This document shows, piece by piece, positions 6,386-59,781 of a stretch of DNA of 64,000 nt; position 1 is the first letter of the stretch, and the number at the start of each line of letters is the position of its first letter. Position numbers and translations under genes: made by a program. The notes under the pieces are model-generated. The model did not search any database, was not told the DNA's origin, and worked only from the letters and a program-made list of their open reading frames with translations. Origin of the DNA: Spartobacteria bacterium (lineage in GTDB: Bacteria > Verrucomicrobiota > Verrucomicrobiia > Chthoniobacterales > UBA10450). The stretch lies in assembly GCA_003169975.1 (NCBI GenBank), contig PNAA01000024.1, positions 99,273 to 163,272 of the forward strand, in the 5' to 3' direction.

Positions 6386-7540
6386 TTACTCGACGGCTCC
6401 CGCCGGATCCCTGGCGTGGGCCAGATCGCGCACGGGATCGATTTTCCAACGACCGGCGACGGCTTCCAGCTCGGCGTTGAGCGACCAGCGGTCCGGCAGC
6501 GCATCGCCCGCGTGTTCGGCGTTCGCGCCTTTGAGACTCATGCAGTTCGTGTTGTCTCCGATCTCGGCGATCCGTGCGAATTCGTCCGGGGTCAGGGTCA
6601 CCTCGGGAAGGGAGGCCAGCTCCTCGACTTTTGTTTCGATGGGCTTCGCTTGCGCGCCCGGTTCCTGGATCAAGGTCGGAACCACGCTTTGCACGGGCGC
6701 ATGCGCGAGATTCCAGATGCAGGCCAGTTGCAACATCGTGAGACCGTGCGCGTCGGCGATCGCGCGCATCTTTTCGATTTTTTCGGCGCCGGCCTCGACC
6801 CAGCCGGCCGGACGAAACGTCCGGTGATCACGCGGCGCGAACTGGTGGCCCGGTTTCACATCGTCGTGGAAAAGGCCGCCGTAATCGACCACCCGCGTCA
6901 CGATTTTCGTTCCGGTTTTTTCCGCGGCCGGAAGGCAAAGGCTGCCGGGCCACGGCTCCAGGGGATTGAGGATGATCATCGCCCAATCGATCAAACCTTG
7001 GAATCGCTCGAGGCAGAGGATGAGGTCGAGGGTAAATCCATTCGCCGGGCCGGGCGCGACGCCGAGTCGTGTCGTTAGGCCGGCGTCTTTTAGTTTTTCC
7101 ATCCCTTTCCAGACGGCGTCGCTGGTGTAGCCGGTGGCATCGGGATTGTGCAGCAAGAGAAGATCGAAGCGGTCGCTTCGGCAGCGCGCCAGTGACTTCT
7201 CGGTAGCCGCGCGCAGATAGCTCGCGTATTCGCCCGGTTTGCGCAGGACCGGGCTGGTGAAACGGGGAAAGCCTTTCGAGCCATCGCGTTGCCCAGAATA
7301 GAAATCGTGCCCGACCGCCCCGACCAGGCAGTAGCTGTCTCGCGGAGTTCCTTCGAGGGCGCGCCCGAGCAGGGTATCGGCTCCGCCCGCGCCGTAAACG
7401 TCGGCCGTCAGGAAGGTGCGGATTCCCTTTTCGTAAGCGAGGCGGATGAGCGCGATGAAACGGTCGTCATCCAGCGGTTCGCCAAAGTGCATGAAACGTC
7501 CGGCACTCCACATTCCAAAAGCAGTCCTGGTCAGTTGCAT
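6386..7540 (-). CDS. Aldo/keto reductase family protein lacking the usual catalytic lysine
   Basis: 384 residues. The N-terminal barrel contains DVYGAGGADTLLGRAL, with the Asp and Tyr of the AKR tetrad, and the LLLLHNPD strand with the His. The strand that normally carries the catalytic Lys (usually I-x-T-K) reads CLVGAVGHDFY here, so that Lys is absent. The rest (GVAPGPANGF, MIILNPLEPWPG, RVVDYGGLFHDD) is well ordered and looks like a conserved subfamily rather than a decaying gene. An AGGGG just before the ATG supports this start. It may be a non-reductase or an altered NADPH-dependent enzyme; the substrate is unknown. Confidence 0.8.
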   Translation of the reverse strand: MQLTRTAFGMWSAGRFMHFGEPLDDDRFIALIRLAYEKGIRTFLTADVYGAGGADTLLGRALEGTPRDSYCLVGAVGHDFYSGQRDGSKGFPRFTSPVLRKPGEYASYLRAATEKSLARCRSDRFDLLLLHNPDATGYTSDAVWKGMEKLKDAGLTTRLGVAPGPANGFTLDLILCLERFQGLIDWAMIILNPLEPWPGSLCLPAAEKTGTKIVTRVVDYGGLFHDDVKPGHQFAPRDHRTFRPAGWVEAGAEKIEKMRAIADAHGLTMLQLACIWNLAHAPVQSVVPTLIQEPGAQAKPIETKVEELASLPEVTLTPDEFARIAEIGDNTNCMSLKGANAEHAGDALPDRWSLNAELEAVAGRWKIDPVRDLAHARDPAGAVE

Positions 7541-7589
7541 CCCCTTAAAATTGCAAAGCTACTGAATCATAATACCCGAAGCGCGCACC

Positions 7590-8102
7590 TCATAAACCCG
7601 GACCCGGGCGCGTCGTTCCATCGGGAATCGGCCTAACGAAATCGCTTTCGGTGGAAACGGTCGCCTGGCCCGCGTTTTGCCGGAGCGCTTCCTCCAGCGC
7701 GCGCCAGGCCAGCATCGCGCACTTCACCCGTTGCGGAAATTTTCGCACCCCGCGGAGCAGGCGAAGATCACCCAGGCTCGGCGCTGCGTCGTCGCTTTCG
7801 CCGGCCACCAGGCCGTGGAAGGCGTGCAGCATTTCTTCGGCGGCGGTGCGCGACTTCCCTTTCAATTTCATCGTCATGAGCGAGGCCGAGGCCTGGCTGA
7901 TGGCGCAGCCCTGCCCGCTGAATTTGATCTCCTGCAAACTCCCGTCGGCGCCGAATTTCACTCCGAGATCGATCTCATCGCCGCACGACGGATTGTCGCC
8001 GTGCACGCACACGGCCGCGTCGGCGAGAGTCCCGAAGTTTCGCGGTCTTCTCGAATGATCGAGAATCACTTCCTGGTACAACTCCTCGAGTTCCGGGTTC
8101 AT
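7590..8102 (-). CDS. sufU: SufU-type Fe-S assembly sulfurtransferase/scaffold
   Basis: About 170 residues in the SufU/NifU-like fold, starting MNPELEELYQEVILDH. The three metal-ligand cysteines are present: NPSCGDEI, GQGCAISQAS and RVKCAMLAW. The segment LRLLRGVRKFPQR is the insertion that separates SufU from IscU. SufU takes persulfide sulfur from SufS through its zinc site. The start at 8102 overlaps the sufS stop as ATGA, which indicates translational coupling. A longer in-frame extension back to 8231 was rejected because it lies inside sufS and is not SufU-like. Confidence 0.93.
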   Translation of the reverse strand: MNPELEELYQEVILDHSRRPRNFGTLADAAVCVHGDNPSCGDEIDLGVKFGADGSLQEIKFSGQGCAISQASASLMTMKLKGKSRTAAEEMLHAFHGLVAGESDDAAPSLGDLRLLRGVRKFPQRVKCAMLAWRALEEALRQNAGQATVSTESDFVRPIPDGTTRPGPGL

Positions 8103-9340
8103 GAAAAGAAGCGGACCGCCGCGCGCAGGATCTCCATCATGCGATCGATTTCGGTGATCGTGTTGTAAAAGTAAAAGCTCGCGCGGGTCGTGCCGGGCAA
8201 ACCGAATTTGCGCATCAAGGGTTGATTGCAATGATGCCCACCGCGCAACGCCAACCCCTGTTGATCGGCGAAGGTGGTGAGATCGTGCGGATGCACGCCT
8301 TTCATCACGAAGCCGACCAGCGCCCCGCGCTCGTTCTTCGGCCCGAGCACGCGCATCCCGGGCAATTCCGCGAGCTGCTCTGCGGCATAGCTGGCCAGCT
8401 CCGAATCGTGCGCAAAAATCGCCGCGCGTCCGATGCTCTCGAGATATTCAATCGCGGCCGCCAACCCGATCGCTCCGGCGATATTAGGCGTGCCCGCCTC
8501 AAAGCGGTGCGGTGCTTTTTTGTAGGTGCTCTTTTCCAAAGTCACGCTCACGATCATTTCGCCGCCCCCGTGCCATGGCGGCATCTTCTCGAGAATTTCC
8601 GCGCGACCGTAGAGCACGCCGATCCCGGTCGGCCCACACATTTTGTGTCCGGAGAAGGCGAGGAAATCGCAGCCCAACTCCTGCACATCGACCGGCAAAT
8701 GACCGGCGCTCTGCGCGGCATCGACGAGCGTGATGGCGCCGAGCGCGCGGGCCTGCCGGCAAAGCTCGGCCACCGGGTTGATTGTGCCTAACGAGTTGGA
8801 AACATGGGTGAAGGCGAACAGCTTCACCTCCGGCGTGAGTAATGCCGGCAGCTGCTCGAGCGCGAGCGTGCCATCCTCGCGCACGGGCACGAAACGCAGC
8901 CGCGCGCCGGTTCGTTCCGCGAGCAACTGCCAAGGCACGAGATTGCTGTGATGCTCCATCTCGGTGAGCAGAATCACGTCTCCGGCGCCGATAAATTTTC
9001 CACCCCACGCTTGCGCCACGAGGTTGATGCTCTCGGTCGTCCCGCGGGTGAAAACGATTTCGTCCGCGCTTGCCGCGCCCAGGTAGTCGGCCACGCCTTG
9101 CCGCGCGTTCTCGTAGGCCTCGGTCGCGCGCGAACTCAGTTCGTGCAGGCCGCGCTGCACGTTGGCGTTGTCGTGCTCGTAATAATCCCGGAGCGCATCG
9201 AGCACCGCGCGCGGCTTCTGCGAAGTGGCCGCGTTGTCAAAATAGATCAGGGGCTGGCCATGCACCTCTTCGCCCAGAATCGGGAATTCCTGGCGGATCG
9301 CACGCCAGTCGACGGAAGCGCGGAAAATTTCGTGCACCAC
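8099..9340 (-). CDS. sufS: Cysteine desulfurase SufS
   Basis: 413 residues of the class V aminotransferase fold. The PLP lysine is in FSGHKMCGPTGIG and the active-site cysteine is in LRGGHHCNQPLM, the short-loop (group II) form that pairs with SufU. LIYFDNAATSQKP is the typical N-terminal motif. It delivers sulfur from cysteine for Fe-S cluster building. It is followed by sufU with a four-base ATGA overlap. The start is GTG, with a second GTG immediately after it. No sufBCD genes are in the window, so the rest of the pathway is elsewhere. Confidence 0.95.
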   Translation of the reverse strand: MVHEIFRASVDWRAIRQEFPILGEEVHGQPLIYFDNAATSQKPRAVLDALRDYYEHDNANVQRGLHELSSRATEAYENARQGVADYLGAASADEIVFTRGTTESINLVAQAWGGKFIGAGDVILLTEMEHHSNLVPWQLLAERTGARLRFVPVREDGTLALEQLPALLTPEVKLFAFTHVSNSLGTINPVAELCRQARALGAITLVDAAQSAGHLPVDVQELGCDFLAFSGHKMCGPTGIGVLYGRAEILEKMPPWHGGGEMIVSVTLEKSTYKKAPHRFEAGTPNIAGAIGLAAAIEYLESIGRAAIFAHDSELASYAAEQLAELPGMRVLGPKNERGALVGFVMKGVHPHDLTTFADQQGLALRGGHHCNQPLMRKFGLPGTTRASFYFYNTITEIDRMMEILRAAVRFFS

Positions 9341-53166: not shown

Positions 53167-53552
53167 GCATCATCGGTATTGGGATCGATCTGGTGGACTG
53201 CGCCCGGATTGAAAATTCGATCGAGCGCTTCGGCGAACGTTTTCTCAAGCGCGTCTTTACCGAAGGCGAGATTGCCTATTCGCAATCGATGAAATTTCCC
53301 GCGCGTCACCTGGCGGCGCGCTTCGCGGCCAAGGAGGCGCTTTCAAAGGCGTTCGGCACCGGCATCGGCAAGGCGATGGGCTGGCGCGATCTCGACGTGC
53401 AGAAAAAAGAGAGCGGCGAACCGTTCGTTGTCCTGAGCGGGGGCGCAAAACAAATGGCCGAGGCGCGTGGAGTGGCCAAAGTCTGGATCAGCCTGAGCCA
53501 CACCGAATCGAGCGGGATGGCCACCATTATTCTCGAAGGTCGCGACGGATGA
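53163..53552 (+). CDS. acpS: Holo-[acyl-carrier-protein] synthase
   Basis: 129 residues. GIGIDLVDCARIE and RFAAKEALSKAFG supply the Mg2+ and CoA-binding residues. It adds phosphopantetheine to acyl carrier protein. It is coupled to pdxJ by ATGA. A perfect 27-bp hairpin (53574-53649) follows the stop. Confidence 0.97.
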   Translation: MSIIGIGIDLVDCARIENSIERFGERFLKRVFTEGEIAYSQSMKFPARHLAARFAAKEALSKAFGTGIGKAMGWRDLDVQKKESGEPFVVLSGGAKQMAEARGVAKVWISLSHTESSGMATIILEGRDG

Positions 53553-53573
53553 CGCGGCTACGGCAAGCGGCGC

Positions 53574-53649
53574 AATGTGGGAGGGGCCTTTGTGCCCCGA
53601 TCCGTTGGCGCACCGCAGTCCCTCGGGGCACAAAGGCCCCTCCCACATT
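53574..53649. repeat. Class D perfect inverted repeat
   Basis: Two 27-base arms, 53574-53600 and 53623-53649, are fully complementary: AATGTGGGAGGGGCCTTTGT and its mirror ACAAAGGCCCCTCCCACATT at the outer parts. The loop is 22 bases. It lies 21 bases after the acpS stop and could be a strong transcription stop or a small mobile palindrome. Confidence 0.9.
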
Positions 53650-53656
53650 TTCCAGA

Positions 53657-55281
53657 TTGCACCGCTCGTTATGCCTAACGATTGCGGGATGGTGCCTTTG
53701 TGCGCCGCTCGCCATGCAGGCGGCGACCGCCGCGCAGCCTTCGCCCGAACCGGTGGCAGCACTCTCGGCTCAGCGCGCCGCGGCGGAGCGCGGCAAAATT
53801 CATCAGACCGGCGTCGCCTACAGCCAGTGGATCGACGGCCTCGCGCAGGACAGCGGCAGCCCGTTTCTGCAGCGGCGCGTCTTTGATCGCGTCACTTGGA
53901 TGCGGCTCCTGGCCTGCGCCGGGACGCTTCTGATTGTCGGCCTGGCGACCGGCTGGTTTCTCTGGTTCGTCCGCCGGCGCGCGGGCCGAATCGAGTCCGA
54001 CGAAGAGCAGTCATGGCAGGCCCTCGCGGCGGCTGCCGTTCGCAAGCCACTTGCGCTGCTCGCCTGGGTGATCGGCGGTTTTCTCTCGCTCATGCCGATC
54101 GTCGAGGGGATTGCCTCGCGCCCACGCGGCTCTTCCTCGTGAACGGGTTGACCGCGATCCTCTACGCCGGTCGGGTGACCGCGGTTCTCTGGCTGATTTT
54201 TCAAATCATCCGCGGGGCGGAAAAACGGATGCGGCAGTGGGCGCAGGGCACGGGCAAGGTGCTCAACAACGTCATCGTGCCGGTGGCCGGCCAGACGCTC
54301 CGCCTGGCCGTCCCGCTCCTTGCCATCATTTTGCTCCTGCCGCTTTTGAGCCTGCCGGATCGTTGGACCTGGGTAACGCAAAAGGGCTTTGGCATCCTGC
54401 TCATCGTTAGTCTGGCCTACCTCATCATCCGCGGCGTGCGCGCCGTGCAGGTGGCGCTGATGCGGGAGCATCGGTTGGATGTGGAGGACATCCTCGCCGC
54501 GCGCCGGATTTACACCCAGGTCTCGGTCATTCGCAAGATCATCATCGCGGCGGTCGTGATCCTCGGCACGGGCTCGATCCTGATGATGTTCGATCCCGTT
54601 AGGCAACTTGGGACCAGCATTCTCGCTTCCGCCGGGATCGCGGGCATCGTCCTCGGTTTCGCGGCGCAAAAGACGCTCGGAAATCTGCTCGCCGGCATCC
54701 AGATCGCGCTCAGCCAGCCGATCCTGATCGACGACGTCGTGATCGTGGAAGGTGAGTTTGGCCGGATCGAGGAAATCACCCTCACCTTTGTGACCGTGCG
54801 GACGTGGGACCTGCGGCGGCTGGTCGTGCCGATCACCTATTTTATCGAGAAGCCGTTCCAGAACTGGAGTCGCAAATCGACCGAAATATTGGGAGCGGTT
54901 TTTCTTTATCTCGATTACCAGGTGCCGTTAGGCGAGCTGCGCGAGGAGGTGAAAAGGCTGGTCGATGGCAACGAAAAATGGGACCGCCAGGTGTGTGGCG
55001 TGCAGGTCACCGACACGAAGGAAAGCACGATCGAAGTGCGTGTCGTGGTCAGTAGCACAAACGCCTCGAGGAATTTCGATCTGCGCTGCGAAGGGCTGAT
55101 CGAATTCCTGCGCGCCAAATATCCGGAAAGTCTGCCGCGGACGCGGCTGGCGTTGCAGCGGCTCGATGACACCGGCCAGCCGCAGACCCGCCACGGCGCG
55201 GCGGTCGAAGGAAAAGAGCACGAGCGCGGCTCGACCGCCCCGGGCCTGGAGCCGAAAGATTCGGATGGATCTACTCGTTGA
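53657..55281 (+). pseudogene. MscS-family mechanosensitive channel gene split by a frameshift
   Basis: The upstream frame encodes a signal-like start (TTG at 53657), a helix (LLACAGTLLIVGLATGWFLWF region) and ALLAWVIGGFLSLMP, then breaks at the C run 54121-54123. The next frame carries on with RLFLVNGLTAILYAGRV, the pore helix region GTSILASAGIAGIVLGFAA and the MscS beta domain (QPILIDDVVIVEGEFG, DLRRLVVPITYF). Adding one C restores a single frame, so this may be a real deletion or a sequencing error. It is otherwise complete and would gate ion flow on osmotic down-shock. An alternative start at 53549 would translate the class D repeat. Confidence 0.8.
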
Positions 55282-55507
55282 AGTCGACGTTTCGTGCCCG
55301 CACTGCGGCGAGGTTTTCCCCTTGCAAATCGACACTTCGCAAGGCGAGCACACCATGATTGAAGACTGCAGTGTCTGTTGTCGCCCGATCACCTTACAAC
55401 TGGAATGCCTTCCGGGCGAAGTGCTTAGCATGCGCGAGGAAGATTGAGCCGCTGGCGTCCGCGGCGCAAGAATCGTAGAAACCTGGGACGTTCCCAATGG
55501 CTGCGTT
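55258..55507. repeat. Direct repeat, left copy (CPXCG locus)
   Basis: About 250 bases that recur at 57254-57504 with roughly 85% identity by eye. It includes the whole CPXCG gene plus a relic of the next gene's start: ACGTTCCCAATGGCTGCG here matches ATGTTCCAGAAGGATGCG at 57485. Confidence 0.8.
55265..55447 (+). CDS. CPXCG-motif cysteine-rich zinc-binding protein
   Basis: 60 residues. CPHCGEVF near the start and CSVCCRPI later provide four or more cysteines for one zinc site, the CPXCG family pattern. It overlaps the end of the MscS gene by 17 bases. Family role is unknown. The second copy at 57261 is broken, so this is the only intact one here. Confidence 0.8.
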   Translation: MDLLVEVDVSCPHCGEVFPLQIDTSQGEHTMIEDCSVCCRPITLQLECLPGEVLSMREED

Positions 55508-55523
55508 CGCCGCCGCCGCATCG

Positions 55524-57152
55524 TTACTTTTGTGTTTCCAAGCCGAGCCTCTTTTGGACCTCGCCCAAGGATGGAACATTGCGATAGTATTCGTTAGGCA
55601 ACTCGTTCCTAAAATCGCTCCAGGCCACGAAGCGCAGACCTGTTCCGGGCGGCTCCTTTAGATCGGCGCGCAAGAGAGGCGCAAACAACTTCAAATCCCA
55701 ATCATCGAATTCCTGCGTCAACGCGCCGAGCGGGACGTTGGGAATCGGGAGATTCGCTCTCTGGCATTCGCGCGCCATGGCCACAACGGCCTGCCACGCG
55801 CGCGCGTGGGAAATCATCGATCGCGGTTCCACCTTTGGATAGACATTGGCGGCATACTGCAGATTGCCAAGGATCGCGCAAACCATCAGGCCTGCATTCA
55901 AACTTGCGTTGAGCAGGCTGGGCGCGGAAGCAAAAAGGAAAAGGAGTTCGCCCAACAGCCCGGCGAGCGCAAACGTGCTCGGGATGAGGTAGCGGGAGCC
56001 CGCCAGGTAATCCGCAAATCCGTGAGGCGATGGCTCTCGCCACGCTCGAACTGAGGCCAGGACAATAATCCCCAGGAACGAGACTGAGGCAAAAGTCCGA
56101 AGGACAAACCTTGCCTGGTTCGGCGTCGTCGGTTCTCGGAGGAAGCGAAGGAAGGCGGAACTAACGAGAAAACCAAAGCCCAGAAGGATCGCCAGGCCAT
56201 AGGGCCAGTCTTGAGTGATCTGCCACGCGCTGGGTATTAGCTGGCCTGCGCTGACAAGGCTGCGCACCGTGGCAAAAGCAAAATTTGGGATGAAACCAAG
56301 AGACGCCATCAAGAATGAAGTGGTCTGCCATCCCGTCGCCGGGGCAGCGGCCTTTTCCCAGGGAAACTCGAGCATGACTGCGGCGTGAAGCGTCGTTAGC
56401 GCGATCATGCTCAAGAGTGGGAGTATTATCTTCGAGTCATCCGAGGAGACACGGCGTCGAGTCCCAAGCCAAATGCCAGCCAGCGTGGCCGCCGTGGCTG
56501 CGACGGTCGCTATCCCCAGGCCGAGAAAGTGCAGCGAGGCATAGGACGCTCCGGCGGCGAGCCACGGCCAGAGTGATTCGCCTGGTCGGCGGACCGTTTG
56601 AACCAGACTCAGCAGGCCGAGCACAGTGAAGAGGAGCCAAAAGATTTGCAGGATCATGAAGGGCCACGCGACGAAGTCTCGCATCTGCGGTTGGAAGATC
56701 AGAATCGCGGACAGGCCGACGGCGGAGAAGCCGGCCCTAAGTCGGGTTAGCTGTAAGGCGCACCCAGTGTTGCGCGCGAACAGAAATAACGTCGTAGCCA
56801 GCAACGCCAGGACGGTGATCTGACGCCACTTCCAGAATCCAGCGTGAGTGCCGATCAGTTTTGCGGTCGCGAATTCGAACAGAAAAGCAAACGGCGTGTA
56901 ATGCCCCTTGAAGCTTTTCGTCAAAAGATTTTTTTCGAAGTCGTGTTGCACGGCGGGGGCGGCGTTGGAAAGGAACAAATACCATCCGCTCTCGGCGCGC
57001 AGAAAGTTGCTTTGCGTATGGTGATAAACGAACGCCGTCACGATCCACCACAAAAGAAACGTGCTCATGAATGCGACCATCGGTGAAGATCTCCGCGCCG
57101 CTGCGGTGTCTTCTCGTTCGCCACTCGGCCAAGGCTTGAGCAATCCTGTCAC
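55524..57152 (-). CDS. Polytopic membrane protein, possibly glycosyltransferase-C-like
   Basis: 542 residues with about 11-12 hydrophobic helices, on the strand opposite its neighbours. The N-terminal portion (FLRAESGWYLFLSN, THAGFWKWRQITVLAL) resembles the layout of GT-C membrane proteins, which often have an acidic residue in the first loop, but no definite motif was found. It is bracketed by two copies of the CPXCG locus and looks less GC-rich than its surroundings, both consistent with acquisition. Later ATGs (25 and 29 codons in) are possible starts. Confidence 0.6.
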   Translation of the reverse strand: MTGLLKPWPSGEREDTAAARRSSPMVAFMSTFLLWWIVTAFVYHHTQSNFLRAESGWYLFLSNAAPAVQHDFEKNLLTKSFKGHYTPFAFLFEFATAKLIGTHAGFWKWRQITVLALLATTLFLFARNTGCALQLTRLRAGFSAVGLSAILIFQPQMRDFVAWPFMILQIFWLLFTVLGLLSLVQTVRRPGESLWPWLAAGASYASLHFLGLGIATVAATAATLAGIWLGTRRRVSSDDSKIILPLLSMIALTTLHAAVMLEFPWEKAAAPATGWQTTSFLMASLGFIPNFAFATVRSLVSAGQLIPSAWQITQDWPYGLAILLGFGFLVSSAFLRFLREPTTPNQARFVLRTFASVSFLGIIVLASVRAWREPSPHGFADYLAGSRYLIPSTFALAGLLGELLFLFASAPSLLNASLNAGLMVCAILGNLQYAANVYPKVEPRSMISHARAWQAVVAMARECQRANLPIPNVPLGALTQEFDDWDLKLFAPLLRADLKEPPGTGLRFVAWSDFRNELPNEYYRNVPSLGEVQKRLGLETQK

Positions 57153-57253
57153 GGGAAGACGCCAAGCGAAACAGATCCACTTTATCTTGTCGAAACATTA
57201 CGAGGGGATGAAGAGACTGGTGGTCGGCACTTCGAAGTGGGGCCGCCAGGTGT

Positions 57254-57504
57254 GATTCCGATGGATCTACTTGTTGGAATCGACGTTTCGTGCCCGCATT
57301 GCGGGGAGGTCTTTCCCTTGCAGATCGACACTTCACAGGGCGAGCACACCATGATCGAAGACGGCAGCGTGTGTTGCCGCCCGATCACCTTGCAACTGGA
57401 AATGCCGGCCGGGCGAAGTGCTTGGCATGCGCGAGGAAGATTGAGGCGCTTGCGCTTTCGGCGCAAAAATCGTAGAAACGAAGGATGTTCCAGAAGGATG
57501 CGAT
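57254..57504. repeat. Direct repeat, right copy (CPXCG locus)
   Basis: Partner of 55258-55507. Just before it, 57239-57254 matches an internal mscS stretch (54980-54995) at 15 of 16 bases, so the copied segment seems to have included the 3' part of mscS with about 260 bases lost. Confidence 0.75.
57261..57444 (+). pseudogene. Decayed second copy of the CPXCG protein gene
   Basis: It starts MDLLVGIDVSCPHCGE but the later zinc site reads DGSVCC instead of DCSVCC, and an extra A at 57400-57402 shifts the frame (LEMPAGRSAW instead of LECLPGEVLS). In the original frame the TGA would be at 57442-57444. Loss of a cysteine and the frame together point to a redundant copy that is decaying. Confidence 0.75.
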
Positions 57505-58306
57505 CGTGCGGCTCCTGCGCGACAACGATCCCGCCACCGTTACTTTGCTGAAGGAGCAGCTTATCGAGTCCGGCATGGAAGGCGCCGCGGCTTTGCGCGA
57601 TTTGCTCGCGCTGGATGACGCAGCGGTGACGGCGCACGTGCGCGAGGTGCTCGAGAAAATCGAGACCGATGAAGCGCAGGACGAAATGCTGCTCTGCGCG
57701 CATTTGTTTCCGGAACACGGCGACATCGAGGCGGCATGGTGGCTCCTGACGCTCTGCTTTGAACCGGACGCGCCGATCGCAAAATTACGGCGCAAGCTCG
57801 ACGCGTGGGGACGGCGGCTGCGCATGCTGGTCGCGAAAGCCGGATCGGCGCGCGAGCGACTCCAGGCCCTTACGACTTTTCTGGCGGAGGATCTCGGGTT
57901 CCGCGGGAACGCGGAGGAGTATTACGATCCGAAGAATTCGCTCCTGAGCGACGTGATCGAGACGCGGCTCGGAATTCCGATCTCGCTCGCCATGCTCTAT
58001 GTGATCGTTGGCCGCCGCGCCAATATGCAGATCGACGGGATCAATTTGCCGGGCCACTTCATCACGCGTTACGACAGAATCCTGTTCGACCCGTTCCACC
58101 AGGGGCGAATCCTGTCGCGGCCGGATTGCGAGGCGATTCTCGCCCGGCAACGGCTAAAAACGGAGTCGAGTTATTTCGCGCCGGCCTCGCCGCGGCTCGT
58201 CCTCATGCGGATGCTGGCCAATCTGCTCTTCATTTTCGAGCGCGCGGGCGAGAAGCAGAAGCACCAACTCGTGATGAGCTGGTTGAAGGCGCTGGATCGG
58301 GACTGA
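57485..58306 (+). CDS. SirB1/transglutaminase-like protein
   Basis: 273 residues. AEEYYDPKNSLLSDVIETR and GIPISLAMLYVIVGRR then INLPGHFITRYDRILFDPF match the SirB1 family with a transglutaminase-like fold; an N-terminal helical repeat (VRLLRDNDPATVTLL) precedes. The typical catalytic Cys of transglutaminases is not evident, so enzymatic activity is doubtful. It is convergent with the FGGY kinase; a class C repeat fills the gap. Confidence 0.8.
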   Translation: MFQKDAIVRLLRDNDPATVTLLKEQLIESGMEGAAALRDLLALDDAAVTAHVREVLEKIETDEAQDEMLLCAHLFPEHGDIEAAWWLLTLCFEPDAPIAKLRRKLDAWGRRLRMLVAKAGSARERLQALTTFLAEDLGFRGNAEEYYDPKNSLLSDVIETRLGIPISLAMLYVIVGRRANMQIDGINLPGHFITRYDRILFDPFHQGRILSRPDCEAILARQRLKTESSYFAPASPRLVLMRMLANLLFIFERAGEKQKHQLVMSWLKALDRD

Positions 58307-58377
58307 TTGTAGCCGGGGTCGGTCACCCCGGTGGCGAGGAGCGTATCCGCAAGTGGCCGGGGTCAACGCCCCCGGCT
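58307..58377. repeat. Class C hairpin repeat between convergent genes
   Basis: Starts TTGTAGCCGGGGTC directly after the SirB1-like stop and ends CCCCCGGCTAAA. The FGGY kinase on the other strand ends in SRGR plus a TGA that lies in the repeat, the same ending as NnrS at 5020. Confidence 0.8.
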
Positions 58378-59781
58378 AAAGAGCAGCTCTTCGAGTTGAA
58401 TTTGACGTGCCCGAGCTTGGCGCGCGTCGGTTGCTTTGGCCCGGTCGTGACGAATGACTTTGCCGCGTTTCAGTGTCGGAATTCTTCCGCCCAGCTGCTC
58501 CAGAACGTGAACCGCGGCGCCGCGCAGCGATGCTTCCTGATCGAGGCAAGTCTCCAGATCGTGCCCGAGGGCGTCGGCGAGGATTTGCAGCGAGGCAGGC
58601 GATTGCAATATCCCGCCGGAGACGATGACTCTTTTCGCGGGACCGATCGCGCCTTCCAGCTGTTCGAGAATCTGGGCTAGCCGGTGATACACCGCGGTGG
58701 TCGTGGCGCGGAGGAGATCGACCGCGGTAGTCGCCTGGGTGAGGCCGAGAATGGCGCCGTCGAGACGCTCGGGCCAGCTGGGCGCGCGTTCGCTGACCCA
58801 AAAGGGCAGAATCGTCAGGCGCGCGGACGCCGCGGACGGCTGGCGCAGAACTTTCTCGAGCGCGTGCTCGTCGTCTGCCAAGCGAAGTTCGCGCCGGCAC
58901 CAGGCGCGCAGGTTACCGGCGTTGCTGACCGCGCCGCCGAGGAGGGCGCGTTCTTGATCAACCACAAAACGGAAGAGGCCGAAAGGCAGGCGCGCATTCG
59001 CCGCCGGAATGGCGCGGACGGCGGCGCTCGTCCCGATATTGATCGCGACGATTCCCGGGCGGCCGGCTCCGGAGCCAAGGTTGCTGGCGGCGCCGTCGCC
59101 GATCGCGGGGAAGACGGTCACGCCATCGAGGTGCACCGCGTCGCGGAGCGGGCCGAGCCGCGAACTCGTTAGGCCGGAAATTTCGAGAAGAACTTTGTCC
59201 CAATCGCGCCGCGCAAAATCGTAAAGGCCCGTGCCGCTGGCCATCGAGTGGCTGCAGCCGCGGGCTCCGAAAGCCTTTTCGAAAATCCACTCCGCGGGTG
59301 AGACCCAGCGCGTCACGCGACGGAATAATCCTGGTTGCGTGCGCTGCAGCCAGAGGAGCTTGGCCGGCCAAAAAGAGGCGCGCAGCATGCAACCGGTGCG
59401 TTGCTGGATGGCGCGCTCCTCGAGTCTTTCGCGCAGACGGGCCGCATCCTCGGCGCAGCGCGCATCGGCCCAGGTATAAATCGGGGTGAGCGGTTCGCCG
59501 GCACGATCAAGCCCGAGCAGGCTGTGCCAGAAACCGGAACCGCCGATGGCCGGGACCGGGCCTTTCGTCAGGCGGCGCGTCTGCCGAAGGCAATTCCTGG
59601 TCGCACGCCACAAAACAGCGGGATCGAGTTCCGCGCCGTGCTCGGCGGAATGGCGGACGCGATAAACCTGGCTGGCGCCGGAACCCGGAACGCGCTGCGC
59701 CTTTTCGTCGAAAAGCGCCGTCCGGACGGAGGAGGTGCCGATGTCGATGGCCAGGACGGCCGGCTCCGGGCGGCGGTGCAT
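58363..59781 (-). CDS. FGGY-family carbohydrate kinase (gluconokinase/xylulokinase-like)
   Basis: 472 residues from MHRRPEPAVLAID. The ATPase fold is visible in AIDIGTSSVRTALFDEK, INIGTSAAVRAIP and RVIVSGGILQSPAS. It phosphorylates a sugar acid or ketose, perhaps gluconate; substrate is not settled by sequence. The last residues SRGR and the stop are repeat-derived (class C). An in-frame start at 59868 adds 29 non-conserved residues. Confidence 0.87.
   Translation of the reverse strand: MHRRPEPAVLAIDIGTSSVRTALFDEKAQRVPGSGASQVYRVRHSAEHGAELDPAVLWRATRNCLRQTRRLTKGPVPAIGGSGFWHSLLGLDRAGEPLTPIYTWADARCAEDAARLRERLEERAIQQRTGCMLRASFWPAKLLWLQRTQPGLFRRVTRWVSPAEWIFEKAFGARGCSHSMASGTGLYDFARRDWDKVLLEISGLTSSRLGPLRDAVHLDGVTVFPAIGDGAASNLGSGAGRPGIVAINIGTSAAVRAIPAANARLPFGLFRFVVDQERALLGGAVSNAGNLRAWCRRELRLADDEHALEKVLRQPSAASARLTILPFWVSERAPSWPERLDGAILGLTQATTAVDLLRATTTAVYHRLAQILEQLEGAIGPAKRVIVSGGILQSPASLQILADALGHDLETCLDQEASLRGAAVHVLEQLGGRIPTLKRGKVIRHDRAKATDARQARARQIQLEELLFSRGR

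Follow-up and report, generated by a model that had tools for sequence, protein, structure and literature searches.

The window analysed here, 64,000 nucleotides corresponding to bases 99273-163272 of the 379-kb contig C5, belongs to a 4.47-Mb draft genome of 59 contigs whose close relatives are metagenome bins labelled Chthoniobacterales. It contains a mscS homologue (53549..55281, plus strand; Pfam MS_channel_2nd), an intact CPXCG gene coding for 60 amino acids (55265..55447, plus strand; Pfam Cys_rich_CPXG), a minus-strand gene for a 542-aa multi-pass membrane protein (55524..57152), a CPXCG pseudogene (57261..57446, plus strand) and a live sirB1-like gene (57485..58306, plus strand), the latter having a Transglut_core2 domain and forming the native downstream flank. 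Palindromic repeats flank the region at 53563-53660 and 58309-58378 (GTGGGAGGGGCCTTTG... and TAGCCGGGGTC...), and elements related or similar to them fill the acpS-sirB1 gap in congeners.

A preliminary description of this DNA reported that some 250 bp at 55258 recur at 57254, which is borne out: in the repeat search positions 55258-55405 match 57254-57401 at 89% and positions 55404-55509 match 57401-57506 at 82%, and BLAST over the whole 379-kb contig returned a single match of 253 bp (85.4%) and no third copy. The repeat extends from 7 bp ahead of CPXCG to about 26 bases inside sirB1. A 16-base match to mscS had also been noted ahead of the right copy; the match is real but far longer, as positions 54942-54995 in the interior of mscS recur at 57201-57254 (54 nt ungapped, 74%, E 2.6e-7; score 26, whereas 200 shuffles reached 14 at most), the 16 bases being the end of a decayed mscS fragment that possibly starts as early as about 57178. 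Taken together with the 253-bp repeat, this match therefore delimits a duplicated block that begins within mscS, includes CPXCG and stops in the first part of sirB1. The duplicated target, comprising the 3' part of mscS, CPXCG and the sirB1 start, measures about 0.6 kb. Its left copy is recognised at 54942..54995 and 55258..55509 and its right copy at 57201..57254 and 57254..57506 (all on the plus strand), the right copy having lost 262 bp that separated its mscS fragment from CPXCG. Each copy retains one native flank, the left being joined to acpS-mscS and the right to sirB1-xylB-uspA-glgA, in the order of four congeners.

The left copy had been described as an intact CPXCG gene next to a dead relic of the sirB1 start, and the right copy as a broken CPXCG gene next to the live start; both assignments hold. 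The left reading frame matches Cys_rich_CPXG with an E value of 7.7e-17 and keeps the residues common to about 40 related sequences, and the adjoining sirB1 relic (55484..55509, plus strand) differs from the live gene at 8 of 26 aligned bases. The right CPXCG shows an extra A at about 57400-57402 (GAA-ATG versus GAA-TGC) that shifts the frame, as well as the replacement of the conserved Cys35 by Gly. The mscS gene, previously taken as whole, is one C short near 54121-54123 compared with family orthologues, which read through this point, and hence is split into an N-terminal part (53549-54142) and a C-terminal part (53896-55281). The missing base may be a sequencing error in this genome; either that, or mscS is decaying across the genus, being a relic in one congener (G004) and gone from the others.

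The decayed sirB1 start and mscS fragment enclose an insert of about 1.65 kb that consists of a single gene and little more; the homology of the insert to relatives ends within the reading frame. The gene reads leftwards, its stop codon lying 15 bp from the sirB1 relic and its start within 50 bp of the mscS relic. The protein was assigned to no family by sequence searches of Pfam, NCBIfam and PDB, and its fold predicted from the single sequence without an alignment (mean pLDDT 43) was too poor to use. Relatives of the gene occur in 15 of 81 genomes of the family, and a profile search of sampled genomes from other families of the order returned none. These proteins, which among the sampled genomes occur only in this family of the order, share invariant RAESG...GHYTP...W-R motifs; by eye only, the motif pattern resembles that of GT-C glycosyltransferases. 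The nearest relative (64%) is found in G010, a member of another genus, and phylogenetic analysis grouped the two genes at 100/99 to the exclusion of the congeners of G010, a disagreement with the genera that suggests transfer or patchy loss. The GC3 of the membrane gene is 0.68 versus 0.74-0.81 for neighbouring genes. No repeats bracket the gene in G010, where it sits elsewhere, nor in G028 or G022, and our searches found no donor molecule carrying it beside mscS-CPXCG-sirB1.

The preliminary description proposed an original order mscS-CPXCG-sirB1 into which the membrane gene entered, duplicating the junction, and suggested comparing relatives that lack the gene. Our search covered four congeneric genomes (G001-G004) and some 75 others of the same family. 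The neighbourhood pdxJ-acpS-gap-sirB1-xylB-(uspA)-glgA is common to all four congeners, uspA being unmatched in G002, and the membrane gene and CPXCG are both absent from all four. Two of them hold relics in the gap, namely a broken mscS in G004 and an end piece of CPXCG (about 80 nt), adjoining sirB1, in G002; neither relic is present in G001 or G003. Taken together, these relics at this place support acpS-mscS-CPXCG-sirB1 as the probable ancestral order in the genus. The entry of the membrane gene likewise agrees with its presence in this genome alone within the genus and with the junction copies on both sides. A relative having two CPXCG copies and no insertion, which would have pointed to an older duplication, was sought and not found among the four congeners. 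No intact empty site was found at this locus: the congeners without the insert hold at most relics of a single copy, mscS and CPXCG having been lost there. In other genera, where neither mscS nor sirB1 accompanies it, CPXCG lies close to xylB or uspA and glgA. At two loci of other genera (L046:7053-10030 and L051:6280-9358) CPXCG adjoins a CNNM/CorC-type transporter gene, and in the second its other neighbour encodes an Nramp-type metal transporter, hinting at a connection with metal handling.

The divergence of the two copies allows them to be dated, as had also been proposed, albeit from small samples. In the 47 codons preceding the frameshift, 13 synonymous and 3 nonsynonymous changes separate the CPXCG copies (dS about 0.63, dN about 0.03). 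In simulations, a right CPXCG left unconstrained for half its branch was expected to accumulate about 16 nonsynonymous changes versus the 3 observed, a number plausible only if the gene was neutral for roughly the last quarter of the branch or less. The synonymous-heavy substitution pattern and the simulation thus indicate a right CPXCG long under selection, and show that both copies were constrained for most of their divergence and that the right one broke late. The substitution pattern speaks against a right gene broken by the insertion event and dead on arrival. The partial genes (mscS, sirB1) have diverged by 26-31%; in the mscS fragment 14 of 54 bases differ, about 10 of the changes being nonsynonymous (codons assigned by inspection). 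This contrast is what a single duplication of the block would be expected to leave, with immediate decay of the partial genes and retention of both complete CPXCG genes. Since dS to congeners ranges from 0.8 to 1.6 for pdxJ, acpS and sirB1, the duplication is younger than the congener splits; dating thus puts it later than the separation from the sampled congeners, yet it is old (synonymous divergence about 0.6).

On balance we think it probable, though far from certain, that the membrane gene was inserted with duplication of a target of about 0.6 kb, the simplest route being a single crossover by a circle. The repeat, the single native flank of each copy, the congener gene order with its relics and the substitution pattern can all be read directly at the locus and in its relatives; what we infer is the recombination route and the occurrence of insertion and duplication in a single event. 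The ancestral chromosome would have read acpS-mscS-CPXCG-sirB1-xylB-uspA-glgA. A piece of about 1.65 kb would have entered it and left the target on both sides, most simply if a circular molecule bearing the gene plus a homologous fragment recombined by one crossover, although the same anatomy would follow from template switching or from end-joining into a staggered break. The partial genes, i.e., the right mscS fragment and the left sirB1 start, would then have decayed freely, the right copy would have lost its 262 bp, and both CPXCG genes would have long been kept under selection before the right one broke. The sequence CGTTACTTT, common to the left junction and sirB1, is a candidate microhomology at the non-homologous joint, the match itself being not significant (E 1.3).

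An identical anatomy would result from two steps, a tandem duplication of mscS'-CPXCG-sirB1' followed by insertion of the membrane gene exactly at the junction of the copies. Tandem duplications are common in bacteria (PMC3784515), and both CPXCG copies appear to have been long functional, as after an ordinary tandem duplication. This succession nevertheless seems unlikely: the insert sits precisely at the meeting point of the sirB1 and mscS fragments, which would be a coincidence had later deletions not trimmed the copies, no significant sirB1 or mscS remnant is found on the wrong side of the insert, and the tandem state was found in no relative. Alternatively, the copies may have differed before they met, the incoming DNA having carried the mscS'-CPXCG-sirB1' of a related species, so that their divergence would predate the insertion. 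The differences between the CPXCG copies are indeed mostly synonymous, like those of orthologues, and the cryptic prophage e14 of E. coli K-12, recovered as a positive control, is likewise an insert between two diverged copies of a target gene end (the icd 3' end and icdC, 87% over 216 bp), although it measures 15 kb, encodes an integrase and involves one gene end only. In the right mscS fragment, however, about 10 of the 14 changes are nonsynonymous in a stretch conserved among family orthologues and most of its divergence would therefore have arisen after fragmentation, which makes previously diverged copies improbable. A chimera, in which the assembler joined two strains' versions of the locus, might be suspected in a 59-contig draft whose congeners are metagenome bins; we consider it very improbable, as the 15% divergence, the decayed fragments, the deletion and the frameshift fit long coexistence in one genome, and the topology, on a 379-kb contig, is that of an orderly insertion. 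Finally, although direct repeats bracket a foreign-looking gene, the idea of a transposon or site-specific integrative element whose attachment sites they would represent can be dismissed with near certainty, the 1.65-kb insert holding the membrane gene only, with no mobile-element, transposase or integrase domain detected by domain searches and no terminal inverted repeats, the repeats being some 0.3-0.6 kb long and spanning parts of three genes, and the gene being free of bracketing repeats in the three genomes mentioned above.

With its long target repeats, one native flank per copy and lack of transposase, integrase or terminal inverted repeats, the membrane-gene locus is, by its sequence anatomy, an instance of a known, poorly explained kind of event, insertion with long target duplication (Nobusato, Uchiyama, Ohashi and Kobayashi 2000, Gene 259:99-108), as described in PMC1643837, PMC3154945 and PMC4978471. 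In those descriptions, as here, an extra gene lies between long direct repeats of target DNA and no element of its own explains them. The cases they describe are mostly restriction-modification genes of Helicobacter pylori, for which closely related strains could be compared, whereas the present one involves an unclassified membrane protein, copies that are 15% diverged and a site that has decayed in relatives. Experiments in E. coli in which a circle bearing part of the target gene integrated by a single crossover gave target duplications of 109-950 bp (PMC3240628), i.e., a partial duplication around the insert in the same size range, albeit with a laboratory plasmid; for the present locus no circular donor is known. 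Homology-facilitated illegitimate recombination (PMC3240628 and references there and in PMC3784515) would also add foreign DNA beside a homologous anchor, but the E. coli study (PMC3240628) expects deletion of the target rather than its duplication. Transposed genes of Arabidopsis (PMC2869330) share the flanking repeats of host target sequence and a model of circle integration, although in a eukaryote and with mostly shorter repeats.

Other bracketed loci were sought by self-comparison of 1.16 Mb of the genome, retaining direct repeats present in two copies, with a length of at least 80 bp, an identity of at least 78% and a spacing of 0.3-8 kb. Fourteen were found, about nine of which are gene fragments, the others being short palindromic or other non-coding sequences. 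At least one of them appears to be a further clear instance with the same topology: a DUF1801 sequence of 456 bp (C5 210559-211014 and 212905-213360, L140:10559-13360; 97.6%) lies on both sides of an M28 peptidase gene. When its outer flanks are joined, they align unbroken to G004 (L247:3407-4069) and to G003 (L250:5132-5730), which therefore provide two empty sites, a locus-level comparison weakened by the occurrence of DUF1801 itself at several places in congeners. We rejected as a target duplication the katG gene lying between yjbQ copies (C5 217632 and 220936; 217632-221096, L140/L141), as the full yjbQ keeps both native flanks in G002; the locus holds a whole yjbQ and an extra 161-bp 5' fragment of it (94%). 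The repeats at C5 45475/47378 and 51185/54740 were not counted as clean, lying in a zone with many other repeated pieces. The stretch C5 42000-57600 (L135:2000-17600), probably a decayed mobile region, consists of many pieces that recur on other contigs here and in G003 and G004.

Applied to 0.4 Mb of G010, the same filter returned two repeats, and applied to 0.36 Mb from other loci of the family it returned none. It found none of this type in E. coli K-12 (0.4 Mb searched), where it recovered e14/icd once the distance limit was raised. An excess of bracketing repeats in this genome is thus no more than suggested, the control samples being small and not random. In G010, the 195-bp start of a helicase gene is duplicated (98.5%) around a 0.7-kb insert (C23 186578-187666, L211:6578-7666); G034 looks like an empty site, and other congeners have a different upstream sequence. 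Another bracketed stretch was seen on contig C34 of G004, where an esterase 3' fragment is separated by about 3 kb from the complete gene (L247:4064-4319 and 7377-8162).

Gene gain in bacteria is mostly discussed in terms of phages, plasmids, integrons and transposons. Single-gene insertions with long target duplication may conceivably be a recurrent way of acquiring genes in this lineage; we propose this only tentatively, from the membrane-gene locus, the DUF1801/M28 locus and several further two-copy gene fragments found around single genes or short gene runs, both here and in a related genus. Published gene-only insertions of this kind mainly concern restriction-modification genes of Helicobacter, and the Verrucomicrobiota cases, with an ordinary membrane gene and a peptidase gene, suggest a more general route. 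Moreover, as the duplication gave a second CPXCG gene that remained functional for long, such an insertion can yield a gene duplicate as a by-product.
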